Source: Acidimicrobiales bacterium (GTDB taxonomy: Bacteria > Actinomycetota > Acidimicrobiia > Acidimicrobiales > Acidimicrobilacustridaceae). Taken from it: a stretch of 64,000 nucleotides of DNA. The stretch lies in NCBI GenBank assembly GCA_025455885.1, contig JALOLR010000001.1:9441-73440 (forward strand). The letters are read 5' to 3'. Position numbers and translations under genes: made by a program. The notes beneath the pieces are model-generated. The model did not search any database and was not told the origin of the DNA. It worked only from the letters and a program-made list of their open reading frames with translations. How positions within the stretch are numbered: the first letter of the stretch is position 1; every line of letters begins with the position of its first letter. This document shows, piece after piece, positions 32 through 6,012 of the stretch.

Positions 32-1642
32 CTACTTGGCGTTGTCGAGCATGCGGCGGGCGATGACCTTCAGGCACAGGGTCTCGTCGGCCCCCTCGAA
101 GATCGACAGCACCCGGGCGTCGACGAAGTACCGGCTCACCGCGTACTCCTCGGCGTAGCCGAAGCCGCCGTGGATCTGCATCGCCTCGCGCGTCACCCAC
201 TCGGCGGCCTTGCAGACGTAGGCCTTCACCATCGACGCCTCGAGCTGGCCCTGGCCCCGGGCCATCAGCCTCGCCACCTCGTAGCCGAACTGCCGGCCGG
301 CCTGGATGAGCACGACCATCCGGCCGAGCTTGGCCCGGGTGAGCTGGTAGTCGGCGATGGGGTGTCCGAACACCACTCGGTCCAGGGCGTACTGGTGGGC
401 GTCCTCGTAGGCGGCCTGCATCACCCCGACGGCCCGGGCGGCGGTCTGGAGGCGGCCGTTCTCGAAGCCGGCCATCTGGTAGTAGAAGCCCTTCCCCAGC
501 CCGTCGTCCCCGCCGACCTGGTTGGCGGCCGAGACGAACCAGTCCTCGAGGGCGATCTCGTAGGAGTGCATGCCCCGGTAGCCGATCGTGTCGATCGCCC
601 GCCCCTCCATCGTCCCTCCGCCGGCCGCACCGCCGTCGGCGCCGGCCTCCTGCACGAACGAGAACCCGTGTCCCTCCCCGCGGGGCTTGGGCACCACGAA
701 CATCGACAGGCCCCGGTGGGTCTTCGACTTGTCGGGGTCGGTGCGGGCCAGGAACATCAGGGCGTCGGCGCGGGCACCGAACGTGCACCAGGTCTTCACC
801 CCGTTGAGCAGCCAACCCCCCTCGGTGGGGGTGGCGCTGCACGTCACGCCGGCGACGTCGGAGCCGTAGTCGGGTTCGGTGACGGCGACGGCGGCCATGA
901 CCTCGGCCGACGCCAGCTTCGGCAGCCAGTGCGCCTTCTGCTCCTCGGTCCCGCCGGCCAGCAGGGCGCGGGTGAGGATCTCGGGACGGGTGATGAGCGA
1001 GCCCCCCGCCCCGAGCGAGGCCCGCGACAGCTCCTCGGTGGCGACGACCATCCCGATGTACTCGCTCTCCCCGCCCTCGCTGAACCCGTCGTACTCGACG
1101 GGCACGCTGAGACCGAACCCGCCCATCTCGGCCAGGCCCTGGATCAGGTCCTCGGGGATGTCGGCGTTGTGGCGGTGGATGTGCTCGGCGACCGGGGCGA
1201 TCTTCTCGGTGGCGAAGCGACGGAACGTGTCCTGCACCATCTCGAAGTCGCCGTCGAGGTGACGGGGACCGGGAGCGTCGGCCAACGCCGCCAGGAACTC
1301 CGGCGCCCGGTAGGCGGCCACGAAGGCACGGGTCGCGTCGAGCACGCCGGGCTCGACACCCCACTCGGCCTCGCGCCCGAACAGCTTGGGGGCCAGCTCG
1401 GCCACGGCGTCGGCGACGTAGGCGCAGGCGATACGGGCCTCGAGCTCACCGTTGGTGCCGTAGGCGAGCATGGCCCGGCCGGTCTCGACGGTGGCGGCGG
1501 CATGGGCCAGGTCGTACGTCAGCACCTGGTGGGCGTCGGGATCGCCGAGCTCGGCGAGTCGTGTGGTGCAGGCGGCGACGATGCCGTGGGCGGTGTCGAT
1601 GACGGCAGCGGCGGCGGTGAGATCCGGTTCGGTCACGGTCAT
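32..1642 (-). CDS. Acyl-CoA dehydrogenase, long form
   Basis: A 536-residue FAD flavoenzyme of the acyl-CoA dehydrogenase family, predicted to introduce the alpha-beta double bond into an acyl-CoA thioester. An N-terminal extension of about 100 mostly helical residues precedes the usual N-terminal, beta and C-terminal helical domains. The FAD/substrate segment TEPDYGSDV, the IHGGFGYAEEY stretch and the C-terminal FEGADE are present; E516 in FEG aligns with the catalytic glutamate of the YEG motif in the family. Start is ATG at 1642. It is divergent from a MaoC hydratase at 1722, and hydration is the next beta-oxidation step, so the two may share a regulator: the 80-bp gap holds the dyad TTACC-N4-GGTAG. 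Length is greater than the usual 380-400 residues, as in long FadE-type proteins. Substrate is not predictable. Confidence 0.9.
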   Translation of the reverse strand: MTVTEPDLTAAAAVIDTAHGIVAACTTRLAELGDPDAHQVLTYDLAHAAATVETGRAMLAYGTNGELEARIACAYVADAVAELAPKLFGREAEWGVEPGVLDATRAFVAAYRAPEFLAALADAPGPRHLDGDFEMVQDTFRRFATEKIAPVAEHIHRHNADIPEDLIQGLAEMGGFGLSVPVEYDGFSEGGESEYIGMVVATEELSRASLGAGGSLITRPEILTRALLAGGTEEQKAHWLPKLASAEVMAAVAVTEPDYGSDVAGVTCSATPTEGGWLLNGVKTWCTFGARADALMFLARTDPDKSKTHRGLSMFVVPKPRGEGHGFSFVQEAGADGGAAGGGTMEGRAIDTIGYRGMHSYEIALEDWFVSAANQVGGDDGLGKGFYYQMAGFENGRLQTAARAVGVMQAAYEDAHQYALDRVVFGHPIADYQLTRAKLGRMVVLIQAGRQFGYEVARLMARGQGQLEASMVKAYVCKAAEWVTREAMQIHGGFGYAEEYAVSRYFVDARVLSIFEGADETLCLKVIARRMLDNAK

Positions 1643-1721: not shown

Positions 1722-2243
1722 ATGACCGTGATCGACCGTCCCTTCGGCCGCCACTTCGAGGACTTCGAGGTGGGCGACGTCTACCGCCACTGGCCCGGCA
1801 AGACCATCACCGAGGCCGACGACCACCTCTTCTGCATGATCACGATGAACCACCACCCGACGCACACCAACAACTGGTACGCGGAGAACGAGTCGCCGAT
1901 GGGTCGTCCCCTGGTCGTCGGCAACCTCGTCTACTCCCTCGTCCTGGGCATGAGCGTGCCCGACGTCAGCGGGGCGGCCATCGCCAACCTCGAGGTGGAG
2001 AGCCTCAAGCACGCCAAGCCGACCTTCCACGGCGACACCATCTACGCCGTCACCCGCGTGCTCGACAAGAAGGAGACCTCCGACGGGCGACGGGGCATCG
2101 TGACCGTCGAGACGAAGGGGATCAACCAGCGCCGCGAGGAGGTCTGCGAGTTCCGTCGCCGGGTCATGGTGTGGCGGCGCGAGTTCGCCCCCGAGCGGGG
2201 CCTGCCCTACGGCGACGACGTCTTCGCCGCCGACGAGGGGTAG
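1722..2243 (+). CDS. MaoC-like hot-dog dehydratase
   Basis: A 173-residue single hot-dog domain protein of the MaoC / (R)-specific enoyl-CoA hydratase family, predicted to hydrate or dehydrate a CoA thioester in the cytoplasm. The N-terminal FGRHFEDFEVGDVY and the segment TEADDHLFCMITMNHHPTH resemble mesaconyl-CoA or beta-methylmalyl-CoA dehydratase-type MaoC proteins, with a D-x(n)-H hydratase arrangement and HHP histidines. ATG at 1722 is preceded by GAGGAGA at a good distance. Its divergent neighbour is an acyl-CoA dehydrogenase, so a role in acyl-CoA breakdown is likely, but the substrate is an inference. Confidence 0.87.
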   Translation: MTVIDRPFGRHFEDFEVGDVYRHWPGKTITEADDHLFCMITMNHHPTHTNNWYAENESPMGRPLVVGNLVYSLVLGMSVPDVSGAAIANLEVESLKHAKPTFHGDTIYAVTRVLDKKETSDGRRGIVTVETKGINQRREEVCEFRRRVMVWRREFAPERGLPYGDDVFAADEG

Positions 2244-2310: not shown

Positions 2311-3093
2311 ATGTCCGACGAGCGGATCCCGCGCGCCGCGGCCGAGGGCTTCGACCGGGGCGCCGACGTCTACGAGGCGTCGCGCCCGTCGTACCCGGCT
2401 GACGCCGTCGCCCGGATCGAGTCCGTCGCCGGCCTCGGCCCGGGACGCACCGTCGTCGACCTCGCGGCGGGAACCGGCAAGCTCACCCGGCTCCTCCTCG
2501 GCTCGGGTGCGGAGGTCGTCGCCGTGGAGCCGTTGGCGGAGATGCGCAGGGTGCTGGTCGAGGCCTGCGGCGGACGGGTCGAGGTGCTCGACGGCGTCGC
2601 CGAGGACATCCCGCTCGACGACGCCTCGGCCGACGCCGTCATCGTGGCCCAGGCGTTCCACTGGTTCGAGCCCCGGGCGGCGCTCGCCGAGATGGCGCGG
2701 GTCCTGCGGCCCGGGGGGACGCTCGTCCTGGTGTGGAACACCCGTGACCGCTCCCACGACTGGGTGGAGCGCTTCGGCGACCTGCTGGCCGAGACGGTCG
2801 ACGATCGACCCTACGACAGCTACTACGAGGTCGACTACGCCGGGGTGGTCGCCGCGTCGGGCGCGTTCGGGGACGTGGACCTGTGGGAGACCACCTGGTC
2901 CCAAACCTTCGACGCCGAGCTGCTGGTCGCCCGGGCCGCCTCGGTCAGCGTGGTCGCGGCGTTGGACGACGACGATCGGGCGCGGGTGCTCGACCGGGTC
3001 CGCCGCCTCGCCGCCACTCACCCGGACCTGGCCGGCCGGTCGACCTTCCCCTTCCCGTACACGACCCGGGTCTACACCTGTCGGCGACGGTGA
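2311..3093 (+). CDS. Class I SAM-dependent methyltransferase
   Basis: A 260-residue Rossmann-fold methyltransferase. SAM-binding motif I reads VVDLAAGTGKLT near residue 50, followed by the acidic end of strand 2 (VAVEPLAEM) and the post-I DGVAEDIPLDD segment. AQAFHWFEP and VLRPGGTLVLVWNTR match methyltransferase type 11 / UbiE-like proteins. No clear ribosome site precedes ATG 2311 and a CACACT box lies close upstream, suggesting a leaderless or near-leaderless message. The stop overlaps the GTG start of mutY (GTGA), so the two genes are translationally coupled. Substrate unknown. Confidence 0.85.
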   Translation: MSDERIPRAAAEGFDRGADVYEASRPSYPADAVARIESVAGLGPGRTVVDLAAGTGKLTRLLLGSGAEVVAVEPLAEMRRVLVEACGGRVEVLDGVAEDIPLDDASADAVIVAQAFHWFEPRAALAEMARVLRPGGTLVLVWNTRDRSHDWVERFGDLLAETVDDRPYDSYYEVDYAGVVAASGAFGDVDLWETTWSQTFDAELLVARAASVSVVAALDDDDRARVLDRVRRLAATHPDLAGRSTFPFPYTTRVYTCRRR

Positions 3094-3995
3094 GCCCGAC
3101 GCCCCGCACCGGGGTCGCCTCCGGGCCTGCACTCCTCGAGTGGTGGGCCGAGGCCCGGAGGGACCTCCCGTGGCGACGCACCCGCGATCCCTGGGCGGTC
3201 CTGGTGAGCGAGGTGATGCTCCAACAGACCCAGGTCGAGCGGGTGGTGCCTCGGTGGCACCGCTTCCTCGAACGCTTCCCCGACGAGTCCCGGTGCGCGA
3301 GCGCCGGAGTGGGCGCCGTGGTCGAGGAGTGGGCGGGCCTCGGCTACAACCGCCGGGCCGTCAGCCTGCACCGGTGTGCACAGGCCGTGGTCGACGACCA
3401 CGGGGGTCGCTTCCCCGGCGACCTCGAGGCGCTCCTCGACCTCCCCGGTGTCGGTCCGTACACCGCACGGGCGGTGCTCGCGTTCGCGTTCGAGCGTGAC
3501 GTGGCGGTCGTCGACACGAACGTCGGGCGGATCCTGGCGCGCCACGGCGGCGAGCCGCTCGGCCCGAGACGTGCCCAGGCCGCGGCCGACGCCCTGGTAC
3601 CCGAAGGGGAGGGGTGGGCCTGGAACCAGGCCCTGCTCGATCTCGGCGCGACGGTGTGCCGCAAGCAGCGCCCCGACTGCGATCGGTGCCCGCTGGCGGC
3701 CTCGTGCGCCTGGCACGGGGCCGGTCGTCCCGACCCCGATCCCGCCGTCGGCTCGCACGGCGTCAGCCGATCCCAGAGCCGCTTCGAGGGCTCGTTCCGC
3801 CAGGGTCGGGCCCGGCTCCTCGACGCGCTGCGGGCCGGTGGCGTGCTCGCCCCCGGGGAGTGGCGCTCGGCGTGCGGCTGGGAACGGGAGGGCTCGGCCT
3901 GGGACGCCGACGACGCCCGCCGGGCGGCCGAGGCCCTCGTCGCCGAGGGCCTGGCCGTCGTGACCTCGACCGGGCACCTCGCCCTCGCCCGCTGA
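3090..3995 (+). CDS. mutY: A/G-specific adenine glycosylase MutY
   Basis: MutY removes adenine mispaired with 8-oxoguanine. The 301-residue protein has the catalytic glutamate E41 in SEVMLQQTQ, the helix-hairpin-helix LPGVGPYTA, the catalytic aspartate D142 in VVDTNVGR, and the cluster ligands C190-x6-C197-x2-C200-x5-C206 for a 4Fe-4S cluster. The C-terminal region after the cluster is short, about 95 residues, and lacks an obvious full NUDIX-like domain; this short form is common in actinobacteria. GTG at 3090 is chosen because it overlaps the previous stop and begins just before the conserved ALLEWWAEARRDLPWRR; the longer open frame from 2883 would overlap the methyltransferase heavily. Confidence 0.93.
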   Translation: MSPTPRTGVASGPALLEWWAEARRDLPWRRTRDPWAVLVSEVMLQQTQVERVVPRWHRFLERFPDESRCASAGVGAVVEEWAGLGYNRRAVSLHRCAQAVVDDHGGRFPGDLEALLDLPGVGPYTARAVLAFAFERDVAVVDTNVGRILARHGGEPLGPRRAQAAADALVPEGEGWAWNQALLDLGATVCRKQRPDCDRCPLAASCAWHGAGRPDPDPAVGSHGVSRSQSRFEGSFRQGRARLLDALRAGGVLAPGEWRSACGWEREGSAWDADDARRAAEALVAEGLAVVTSTGHLALAR

Positions 3996-4019
3996 CCGGC
4001 CCCCTGCCGGGGCGGTCAG
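3992..4019. terminator. Bidirectional hairpin covering two convergent stop codons
   Basis: A 28-base imperfect palindrome begins CTGACCGG and ends CGGTCAG (seven outer pairs intact, four more inside). It contains the mutY stop at 3993-3995 and the stop of the convergent selenoprotein gene at 4016-4018. No T-tract follows, so strength is uncertain. Confidence 0.55.
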
Positions 4020-4543
4020 CCGGTCGTCAGGGCGGCGACGATCTCGTCGACGGCGTCGTCGGCGAGGGCCCGGATCTCGTCGTCGGTGCGGTCCTGGATG
4101 GGGTGCGGGACGAACACGCGGGCCGGGTCGGCGCCGAGCGCCGTGGACTGGGCGGTCGCCGCGTCGACGAACTCCGTCGACGCCACGAAGACGCCGACCA
4201 CCCCTCGTGACTCCAGATCCACGATGTCGTGCACACTGCACGACGTGCAGCTCCCTCAGTCGGCGAGCGCCTCGATGACCACCTCGCACTGCACGGCGAT
4301 CTCCTGGCGCAGGTCGACCGGGGCGGGCTTGGTGAACGTGGGCTTGGCGAACCGGGTGATCACCGCTCCCCGTCGGGTGAGCTGCTCCTCGAGGCGGTCG
4401 AGGAAGACGTCGCCGCGCGCCTTGGTGATGTCGAGCAGCGCGACGCGGCGGCCGTCGATCGACGGGATGCGGGGCATGCGCTCACGCCGGGCGGGCGCGA
4501 ACTCACCGGTCGGGTCGAGCACGGTCAGGCTCTCTCGGTTCAC
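4016..4543 (-). CDS. UGSC-motif selenoprotein (in-frame TGA read as selenocysteine)
   Basis: Read through the TGA at 4258-4256, this frame encodes 175 residues with selenocysteine at position 96. The sequence around it is EALAD-U-GSCTSCSVHD. The upstream half contains LDPTGE near the start and the downstream half ends with ASTEF, VPHPI and an acidic helix. This matches the UGSC family, in which the first motif position is Cys or Sec; its biochemical function is unknown, and a thiol/selenol redox role is inferred. Both halves are in the same frame, conserved motifs straddle the TGA, and a perfect 7-bp hairpin starts 12 bases after it. GTG 4543 has GGAGG upstream and overlaps the stop of the preceding thioredoxin-fusion gene (GTGA), so the pair is coupled. 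No selenocysteine machinery gene is in the window. An ordinary gene caller would split or truncate this gene. Confidence 0.87.
4227..4243 (-). promoter_or_regulatory. Candidate bacterial SECIS hairpin
   Basis: On the minus strand, TCGTGCA-GTG-TGCACGA forms a perfect 7-bp stem with a GUG loop. The loop lies 20-22 nt after the UGA, within the spacing known for bacterial SECIS elements, and begins with G-U as is typical. An alternative 6-bp stem CTGCAC-GTC-GTGCAG partly overlaps it. The hairpin lies in the coding region, as bacterial SECIS elements do. Confidence 0.65.
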
Positions 4544-6012
4544 GGACGCACCTCCACGGTGACGGGGTCGCTGCCGACGGCTCCGGAGGCCCAGGACCCG
4601 ATGATGGCACTGAACATGCCCGCCCCGCCGCCGGCGTAGGTGATGGTGAGGCCGCCGTCGCGGAACTTGGGGAGCTTGAGGCCGGCCCACTTCGGGTCGA
4701 GGCCCATCTCGAGCCCGTCCACCCCCTCGAGGAGGGGGTCGGTGTCGAGCATGAGGACCTCCTTCAGCTCGTCGAGGAGGCGCTGCTTGTCCCAGCCCGC
4801 CTCGGCGAACACCCGGCCGTGCTCGGGGCTGACCACCAACATGGCGTCGAAGGCGACCACCACCCGCGGGTGGGTGACCCCGGCCAGGCAGGCGGCGAAG
4901 GAGCGGGCCAGCGACTCGGGGGTCCGGGACGTCTGGTCGGCCATGCCCCGCACCCCCTCGGCGGCGAAGAGCGTGACCGCTGAACGCCCCTCGGGCACGC
5001 CCCGGTCGGTGGCCAGCGACGTCCACGGCGAGCCGTCCTCGTCCTCGGCGAAGCAGAACGTGTACTTCCCGGGGTTCCCGAGCGTCGCCCGGTCGATCCC
5101 CCCGGGGCGGCCGCCCCCGACGTTGCGGATCACCAACTGGAGGGCACGGCCGATGGTGGCGTTGGCCCGGTTCCCCTGGCCGAGGGCGTTCACGCCGCTG
5201 TTCATGCCGATGGCCCGGGTGACGGGTCCGTTGACGACCACGAGCGGACCGGCGAACCACGTCGTGGCCAGGAGCCCGTGGATGTTGAACTCGTCGGTGC
5301 ACGCCGCTTCGACGGCGGCGAGGACGACCGGCAGGTACTCGGGCTTGCAGCCCGCCATCACCGCGTTGACGGCCACCTTCTCGACGGTGCACTCGACGAG
5401 GTCGGGGGGCACGACGGCCACGACCTCGGACGGGTCGCGGCTCGTGCCGTCGAGCATGCGCAGCACCCGTTCGGGGGTCGGTGGCACCACCGGGAGGCCG
5501 TCGGTGAACCCACGGTCGAACAGCGACTCCATCTCGTCGTCGAGCGGTGAGATCTCGATGCGACGCGACCGCAACCGGGCGCCTTCGTGGCGCACCCGGA
5601 GCCGGTCGCGGATCGACGGCTCCTCGGTGAGCGAGCCGCAGCCGGGTCGCTGCTCCGGGAGCCCGGGTGCGAGGTCGGCCACGCCCGTGAGGTGCTCCCA
5701 CTCCCGTCGTGACCAGCCTTCGGTACGACCCTCGTCGGCCCCGCCCACGCGGCGAACCAGGGTCGGCACGGTGGCCACGCCCAGCACCCAGGAGGTGTCG
5801 AGGTCGCGGTCGATGACGACGCCCGGGAGGTGGGCGAAGGGCTCTGCGTCGTCCTGCACCACGACGGTCAGCCCCCCGGCGGCGCCCAGCTGCTCGAGCG
5901 CCGGCACGACCAGGAGGCACGTCGGGCAGTCGCGTTTCACGACGGCGATCAGCCCGTCGTCGGGCAGTTCGGTCCCGACGGTCTCGATCCGGTGCACCCC
6001 GCCCCCCGACAT
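4540..6012 (-). CDS. Thioredoxin-like domain fused to a UGSC-partner domain
   Basis: A 490-residue cytoplasmic protein. Residues about 1-110 form a thioredoxin-like domain with the redox motif DCPTC followed by LLVVPALEQLG and a cis-Pro segment VATVPTLVRR. Residues about 150-490 are a large domain with recognisable conserved stretches (FTDGLPVVPPTPERV, MAGCKPEYLPVVLAAVEA, NSGVNALGQGNRANATIGRA, AGGGAGMFSAII). I recognise this domain only as a neighbour of UGSC proteins; its activity is not known to me. The stop overlaps the start of the selenoprotein gene, so the two are made together. A dithiol domain beside a selenol protein suggests that the thioredoxin part reduces the partner; this is inference. 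ATG 6012 is the first start; the upstream divergent gene begins near 6126. Confidence 0.75.
   Translation of the reverse strand: MSGGGVHRIETVGTELPDDGLIAVVKRDCPTCLLVVPALEQLGAAGGLTVVVQDDAEPFAHLPGVVIDRDLDTSWVLGVATVPTLVRRVGGADEGRTEGWSRREWEHLTGVADLAPGLPEQRPGCGSLTEEPSIRDRLRVRHEGARLRSRRIEISPLDDEMESLFDRGFTDGLPVVPPTPERVLRMLDGTSRDPSEVVAVVPPDLVECTVEKVAVNAVMAGCKPEYLPVVLAAVEAACTDEFNIHGLLATTWFAGPLVVVNGPVTRAIGMNSGVNALGQGNRANATIGRALQLVIRNVGGGRPGGIDRATLGNPGKYTFCFAEDEDGSPWTSLATDRGVPEGRSAVTLFAAEGVRGMADQTSRTPESLARSFAACLAGVTHPRVVVAFDAMLVVSPEHGRVFAEAGWDKQRLLDELKEVLMLDTDPLLEGVDGLEMGLDPKWAGLKLPKFRDGGLTITYAGGGAGMFSAIIGSWASGAVGSDPVTVEVRP

Follow-up and report, generated by a model that had tools for sequence, protein, structure and literature searches.

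A probable UGSC-family selenoprotein and its recurrent partner gene in an Acidimicrobiales bacterium

The window, a stretch of 64,000 nucleotides from an Acidimicrobiales bacterium, carries on its minus strand a gene of the UGSC family (4016..4543) that is interrupted by one in-frame TGA (4256..4258). Comparison of sequences makes it nearly certain that this gene forms a two-gene operon with a longer partner gene (4540..6012, minus strand, 490 residues), and that its UGA is read as selenocysteine (Sec) by means of tRNA-Sec and SelB, aided by a hairpin downstream. The locus is confirmed as a true observation, far beyond chance. UGSC proteins are recurrently paired with, or fused to, this one partner, whose core has a fold that was not recognised.

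The UGSC gene and its in-frame TGA

The first-pass annotation had placed a selenoprotein at these coordinates, which are correct; it left the strand unnamed, and this is the minus strand. A plus-strand reading of 4016-4543 yields no sensible protein and was discarded. When 4543-4016 is translated with TGA as U, a single frame reads VVIEALAD-U-GSCTSCSVHDIVDLE; the protein has 175 residues, of which number 96 is Sec, and a second TGA at 4018-4016 ends it. The only in-frame interruption is the TGA at 4258-4256. Two same-frame pieces split by one TGA, and the reading EALAD-U-GSC across it, had been described from the letters alone, and both hold in this translation. So does the account of the start: the GTG (4543-4541) and the TGA that ends the upstream gene (4542-4540) overlap in the sequence GTGA, and a Shine-Dalgarno GGAGG (4551..4555, minus strand) lies 7 nt before it.

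The joined product matches the NCBIfam model NF041046, "UGSC family (seleno)protein", with 155 bits (curated cut-off 125) and Pfam PF24696 with 147.1 bits (curated cut-off 25). Both matches cross the TGA, and the family assignment made at first sight is upheld. Pfam PF07992, which was also sought, was uninformative. The motif in the window protein is U96-G97-S98-C99, and the U/C-G-S-C columns are invariant in 11/11 and 37/37 aligned members, where Sec is written as C and the 37 members were picked from 81 for spread.

Relatives were collected by a scan of genome contigs, from which the best 80 of 130 were kept, a choice that biases the sample to close relatives. By title, most belong to Acidimicrobiia or elsewhere in Actinomycetota, and some to Deltaproteobacteria and further groups. 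All 80 kept loci have TGA at the Sec site, none has a further stop in the 60 codons before or after it, and 78 to 90 codons remain open beyond the TGA. Within the bacterium's own family, NF041046 finds matches in 15 of 37 genomes. The best four of the 25 matches listed contain exactly one TGA, and the other 21 are free of stops. Each of these 21 stop-free loci has a Cys codon at the aligned site, which agrees with the earlier statement that the first motif position in this family is Cys or Sec, and is the result of the alignment with Cys-carrying members that had been proposed as a check.

Across the class Acidimicrobiia, NF041046 has matches in 155 of 394 genomes, 118 of them with matches above cut-off. 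One TGA is carried by 135 of the 137 listed class matches over cut-off, and the other two have no stop. The family seems to be expanded in some genomes of the class, which have six to eight matches to it. G110, G151, G251 and G318 are examples, and each of these four includes one or more matches with TGA.

In a tree of 89 rows, 73 Sec types cluster together with good support and the Acidovorax row is additional to this cluster, so that the Sec/Cys label requires two changes. This tree includes every second locus of L040-L119, omits three plasmid rows whose motif pattern was unmatched, and has long branches.

The machinery needed to read UGA as Sec was sought in the genome of the window (3.29 Mb, 33 contigs); its absence had been named beforehand as a finding that would refute the selenoprotein. 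All four components are present. tRNA-Sec is found with 70.6 bits (gathering score 47), and ARAGORN gives it the anticodon TCA (UCA). On contig C2, selA (418 bits) is directly followed by selB (273 bits), and selD is found with 364 bits. A second match of the tRNA-Sec model, with 48.9 bits, is also above cut-off; it is probably another long tRNA, because the model gives matches in all 14 control genomes. As for other users of Sec in this genome, 11 formate-dehydrogenase-like matches were found, all below cut-off and without an internal stop.

Selenoproteins had been called uncommon in actinobacteria. This does not hold for the class Acidimicrobiia, where selA is above cut-off in 256 of 394 genomes (257 of 394 at E <= 1e-60) and Sec decoding is common. 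A selA match at E <= 1e-60 occurs in 116 of the 121 genomes with a listed TGA-type UGSC gene versus 141 of the 273 others (Fisher p 9e-21, with genomes that are related and hence non-independent). Here the TGA type is defined among the matches listed, to about E 8e-34, and the 273 others may include some TGA genomes. In four genomes of the bacterium's own family (G014, G015, G016 and G021), every UGSC gene is free of stops and selA has no match.

A SECIS-like hairpin is predicted on the minus strand at 4226..4244. It begins 11 nt after the UGA and consists of a 7-bp stem (GUCGUGC/GCACGAC) and the loop AGUGU. In E. coli fdhF, the spacing between UGA and hairpin is 11 nt. Among 81 sequences, codons +4 to +10 after the TGA are almost invariant, silent sites included, and TGC, AGT and GTG at +6 to +8 are each present in 81/81; many equally conserved UGSC residues elsewhere in the same sequences have mixed codon use. 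In 43 of the 81 sequences, picked for spread, 99.3% of the cells of the stem are paired and two of the seven pairs have two-sided changes, in six cells. The covariation score of these 43 was reached by none of 500 shuffles. Controls slid along the alignment stayed below it, the +3 slide coming close (0.064 vs 0.084) with two pairs changed two-sidedly.

The hairpin is absent in the 21 Cys-type loci, where the codons are partly mixed and the mean fold of the stretch is -4.6 kcal/mol, versus -12.3 kcal/mol in the 80 Sec loci. Folded alone, the hairpin region of the window is no more stable than its shuffles (z 0.33), and an Rfam search over 4100-4400 gave no match to a SECIS family. As expected for a bacterial selenoprotein, a conserved stem and loop follow shortly after the UGA. 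With the Sec machinery and the TGA of the relatives, this hairpin supports the original reading of TGA as Sec.

Other explanations of the TGA can be weighed against these observations. If it were a true stop, the locus would be a pseudogene or would encode two separate fragments, with translation of the second beginning anew at the GTG of codon +8. This GTG is indeed found in 81/81 sequences, and a mechanical listing of open reading frames shows a fragment at 4016-4234. However, all 80 kept relatives share the TGA with its long open frame behind it, and relatives with Cys at the site encode one continuous protein. Moreover, the invariant stretch spans +4 to +10 with paired changes, beyond the GTG itself, and no conserved Shine-Dalgarno is seen before the GTG in the alignment. 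A true stop is thus highly improbable. Even less probable is an error of sequencing or assembly, in which TGC or TGT was read as TGA. A Cys codon is only one base away from TGA, but such an error can practically be dismissed, because the same TGA stands in 80/80 kept public loci and in 135/137 listed class matches over cut-off; this speaks against the second refutation foreseen by the first-pass annotation. A genome-wide recoding of TGA as Trp or Gly is likewise given next to no weight. Nothing was found in its favour, and against it both the UGSC gene and the upstream partner terminate in TGA, the genome has a tRNA-Sec whose anticodon is TCA, and the stop-free relatives have Cys at the site, neither Trp nor Gly.

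The partner gene and its surroundings

Partner proteins were compared as a set of 32, consisting of the window's own and 31 others picked for spread. Two parts can be distinguished in the window's partner. About residues 20-111 (5680..5955, minus strand) make up a thioredoxin-like N-terminal domain with the motif CPTC at 29-32, and about residues 147-485 (4558..5574, minus strand) make up a core domain without a family match.

Evidence for the N-terminal domain comes from profiles and from a structural model. Searched against solved structures, the profile built from this set finds thioredoxins (best E 3.4e-4), and 28 of the 32 members match TIGR01068 when E up to 1 is allowed (best 2.7e-5). 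The model of the partner matches thioredoxin-fold chains with Z about 10, and C29, T31 and C32 are invariant in 32/32 partners (CxTC). Taken alone, the window's partner has no NCBIfam match and matches Pfam TraF at E 0.006, under cut-off; no Pfam or NCBIfam model matches the whole protein above cut-off. These profiles and this model show a thioredoxin fold with a CxxC motif at the N-terminus.

The core was less easily placed. Its structure matches contain no convincing fold (mean pLDDT of the model 83), and beyond thioredoxins the partner profile finds one weak GldM row among solved structures. Foldseek rows suggesting a fumarate hydratase-like protein were set aside, with TM-scores near 0.2. 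None of the tools applied, profile comparison included, connected the partner with a reductase subunit.

A homologue of the partner is present in 73 of the 80 relatives' loci, and in 70 it ends no more than 700 bases upstream of the TGA. Seven loci lack it; in three of these a contig end lies close upstream, and the genomes of five of the seven have a partner elsewhere, partial in two cases. Of the 73 partners of the Sec clade, 67 extend over the thioredoxin part, and five of the other six start at a contig end. At locus L062 there is room upstream of the partner core, yet no match to the thioredoxin part.

Cys-type UGSC genes are also paired. In all 16 of the Cys-type loci tested (of 21), the partner core lies beside the UGSC gene, either upstream or downstream. 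In 14 of the 16, at most 49 residues precede the core, which leaves no room for the thioredoxin part. The partner frames of the loci L019 and L036 have long upstream stretches with CxxC; as candidates for a thioredoxin part these were rejected, since by eye they look like spurious frames before a start codon.

The genome of the window contains a second UGSC-partner pair (G000:C11:93350-94905; L030, L163, L180), which is of the Cys type and without the thioredoxin part. Its neighbours have catabolic functions: a P450, an acyl-CoA thioesterase, an SDR, a luciferase-like oxidoreductase and an enoyl-CoA hydratase. Thioredoxin is absent among the five neighbours scanned around this pair; here, as around the Arthrobacter array described below, neighbour frames were chosen by third-position GC.

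Further arrangements can be found on plasmids. A search of plasmid proteins gave nine UGSC records, and the partner is beside the UGSC gene or fused to it in 9/9. In the plasmid of Arthrobacter ERGS1:01 the gene order is trxB-trxA-partner-UGSC. The UGSC protein of this plasmid also has a C-terminal NifU-like domain (L177:6998-7813). In Variovorax SRS16, trxB lies upstream of the UGSC-partner pair with two genes in between, and in Variovorax boronicumulans UGSC and partner are a single fused ORF. A trx gene is unlisted in seven of the nine plasmid stretches, whose gene tables are incomplete and in one case without annotation.

The plasmid p2-T1 of Acidovorax sp. T1 encodes a UGSC-partner fusion with TGA at the Sec codon (L173:6995-9490). 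The hairpin after this TGA has an identical loop and one compensated pair in its stem, and the fusion has no thioredoxin part. Sec and thioredoxin fusion are therefore not strictly coupled, as this plasmid and locus L062 illustrate. The gene table of p2-T1, which is incomplete, lists solely the 96-residue fragment before the TGA, as "hypothetical protein". Gene tables can thus still cut UGSC genes at the Sec codon.

The genes around the pair vary. On three of four haloarchaeal plasmids it lies near CoA transferases, together with parts of tripartite tricarboxylate or TRAP transporters, and on the fourth near an acyl-CoA dehydrogenase and an MFS transporter. In many loci of Acidimicrobiia, genes for MaoC-like proteins, acyl-CoA dehydrogenases and HhH-GPD proteins recur near UGSC. 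In the window these are an acyl-CoA dehydrogenase (32-1642, minus strand), a MaoC-like dehydratase (1722-2243, plus strand) and an HhH-GPD base-excision protein (2883-3995, plus strand). Ten loci, mostly from other groups, have other neighbours, two of them with acyl-CoA dehydrogenase-like genes by eye. For this reason the neighbours that recur in Acidimicrobiia probably reflect synteny of the lineage, and because neighbours vary between groups, they do not indicate a substrate.

Fold, kinship and a proposed enzyme

The model of the UGSC protein (pLDDT 91.9) has an alternating strand-helix fold, with Sec96 immediately ahead of the helix after the third, central strand. Its listed matches are mostly flavodoxin-, receiver- and other Rossmann-like folds. 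The best VIA match is 8s7v_H (Z 12.1, rmsd 2.8, 129 aligned); a functional link to this chain is not claimed, only a shared fold. Neither thioredoxin nor peroxiredoxin occurs among the 50 rows shown per match list. Since the listed matches are flavodoxin- and receiver-like, a thioredoxin-like fold of UGSC is not favoured, although the lack of a listed match is no proof against it. A sequence search of the UGSC profile against solved structures gave nothing at E up to 1.

Similarity to the protein B subunits of selenium-dependent reductases recurs among UGSC members. At E up to 1, the GrdF model NF040794 is matched by 31 of 37 members (best 3.5e-6), the GrdB model TIGR01917 by 25 of 37 (best 5.6e-6) and TIGR01918 by 12 of 37 (best 4.3e-4). 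The window protein matches GrdF at E 0.05, its residues 93-173 aligning with positions 347-425 of the 435 in the model. It does not belong to GrdB/PrdB, as its 12.1-12.2 bits against GrdF compare with a cut-off of 800 bits, and PF07355 is not listed for it at E up to 1. In hhalign comparisons of UGSC with PrdB-like proteins, Sec falls on Sec, with E 0.0099 and 0.0032 and probabilities of 4% and 10%. These alignments hint at shared ancestry of UGSC and protein B, rather than membership.

Nine UGSC-carrying genomes were searched for PF07355 itself, and seven have it. All 12 PrdB-like (PF07355) frames extracted from them (L150-L161) end at a TGA in the expected place of Sec, which makes further selenoproteins likely in these genomes. 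After the TGA, nine frames continue with PxC, one with QVC and two with PLD.

Glycine, sarcosine, betaine and D-proline reductases are fed by thioredoxin. A comparable mechanism can be proposed for UGSC and its partner, which would form one enzyme. The selenolate of Sec96, placed before the helix that follows the central strand, would attack the substrate, while the partner core would bind or activate it. Cys99 of the UxxC motif would be the resolving thiol, as expected by analogy with the protein B subunits of glycine, sarcosine and proline reductases. The thioredoxin domain of the partner, through its CPTC motif, would reduce the selenenyl-sulfide in each turnover, taking the place of a thioredoxin encoded apart. 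In Cys-type relatives, Cys would act as the nucleophile and a free thioredoxin would serve as reductant. The catabolism of organic acids or CoA esters would be the likely context.

Such a two-subunit seleno-reductase, driven by thioredoxin and serving organic-acid catabolism, stands at about even chances. It is favoured by the thioredoxin domain in the partner, by the Arthrobacter order trxB-trxA-partner-UGSC and by the trxB gene of Variovorax SRS16. The weak GrdF and GrdB matches, the alignment of Sec on Sec and the catabolic neighbours also speak for it. It is weakened by the E of 0.05 of the window protein against GrdF, by the low profile probabilities and by the unrecognised fold of the partner core. 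The linkage to thioredoxin is also not universal, as is seen in Acidovorax, in the genome's own Cys pair and in the seven plasmid stretches without a listed trx gene. More tentatively, UGSC and partner may represent a new class of seleno/thiol reductase, made up of a Sec subunit resembling protein B and a thioredoxin-bearing, substrate-binding subunit. If true, this class would take part in organic-acid catabolism in Acidimicrobiia, other bacteria and haloarchaea.

Alternatively, Sec may be correctly assigned while the pair acts as a peroxidase or a thiol repair system, with a peroxiredoxin-like Sec protein served by thioredoxin. The thioredoxin domain of the partner would suit this role, and the selenoprotein families of the GOS survey are, in the available part of PMC2398784, mostly thiol oxidoreductase-like. 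However, the UGSC model matches Rossmann-like folds and no peroxiredoxin is among the 50 rows shown per list, the neighbours are catabolic rather than those of a stress response, and weak matches to GrdB and GrdF recur among UGSC members. A peroxidase or repair function is regarded as unlikely. The thioredoxin-driven reductase has the practical merit that a recurring partner, a thioredoxin fusion and a weak kinship to protein B outline a two-protein enzyme amenable to expression and assay.

Comparison with known systems

Geodermatophilaceae are actinobacteria. The available part of PMC5330540 describes Sec-type UGSC members in this group that are decoded with a CUA anticodon. The UGSC family as such is known from surveys of metagenomes and genomes, according to the accessible portions of PMC2398784 and PMC13188914. 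The window gene is a further member of this already named, functionally uncharacterised family, and because the family is named in databases, the finding is less surprising than the first-pass annotation held. Compared with NF041046 and PF24696, the window protein is alike in passing the cut-offs, in its U/CGSC motif and in having Sec where members have Sec or Cys; nothing was found that separates it from its relatives.

GrdB, GrdF and PrdB (PF07355, TIGR01917, TIGR01918, NF040794) resemble the window protein in that the Sec of PrdB-like proteins aligns, at low probability, with the Sec of UGSC. In contrast to protein B, the window protein is shorter, at 175 residues against a model of 435 positions, and it scores 12 bits where 800 are required.

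In the parts of the UGSC-selenoprotein literature covered here, the partner, its thioredoxin domain and the kinship to reductases are undescribed, and earlier work may hold more. A Trx-like fold is supposed for UGSC in the available text of PMC2398784, whereas the UGSC model obtained here matches flavodoxin- and receiver-like folds. The same text (Zhang and Gladyshev 2008, PMC2398784) describes a UGSC/Unknown_1 fusion, in which a UGSC protein is joined to a second conserved domain. Unknown_1, as far as that portion of the paper describes it, may be the fused partner of the plasmid records. Unlike the UGSC/Unknown_1 fusion as presented there, the partner in the window is a separate, overlapping gene with a thioredoxin domain of its own.
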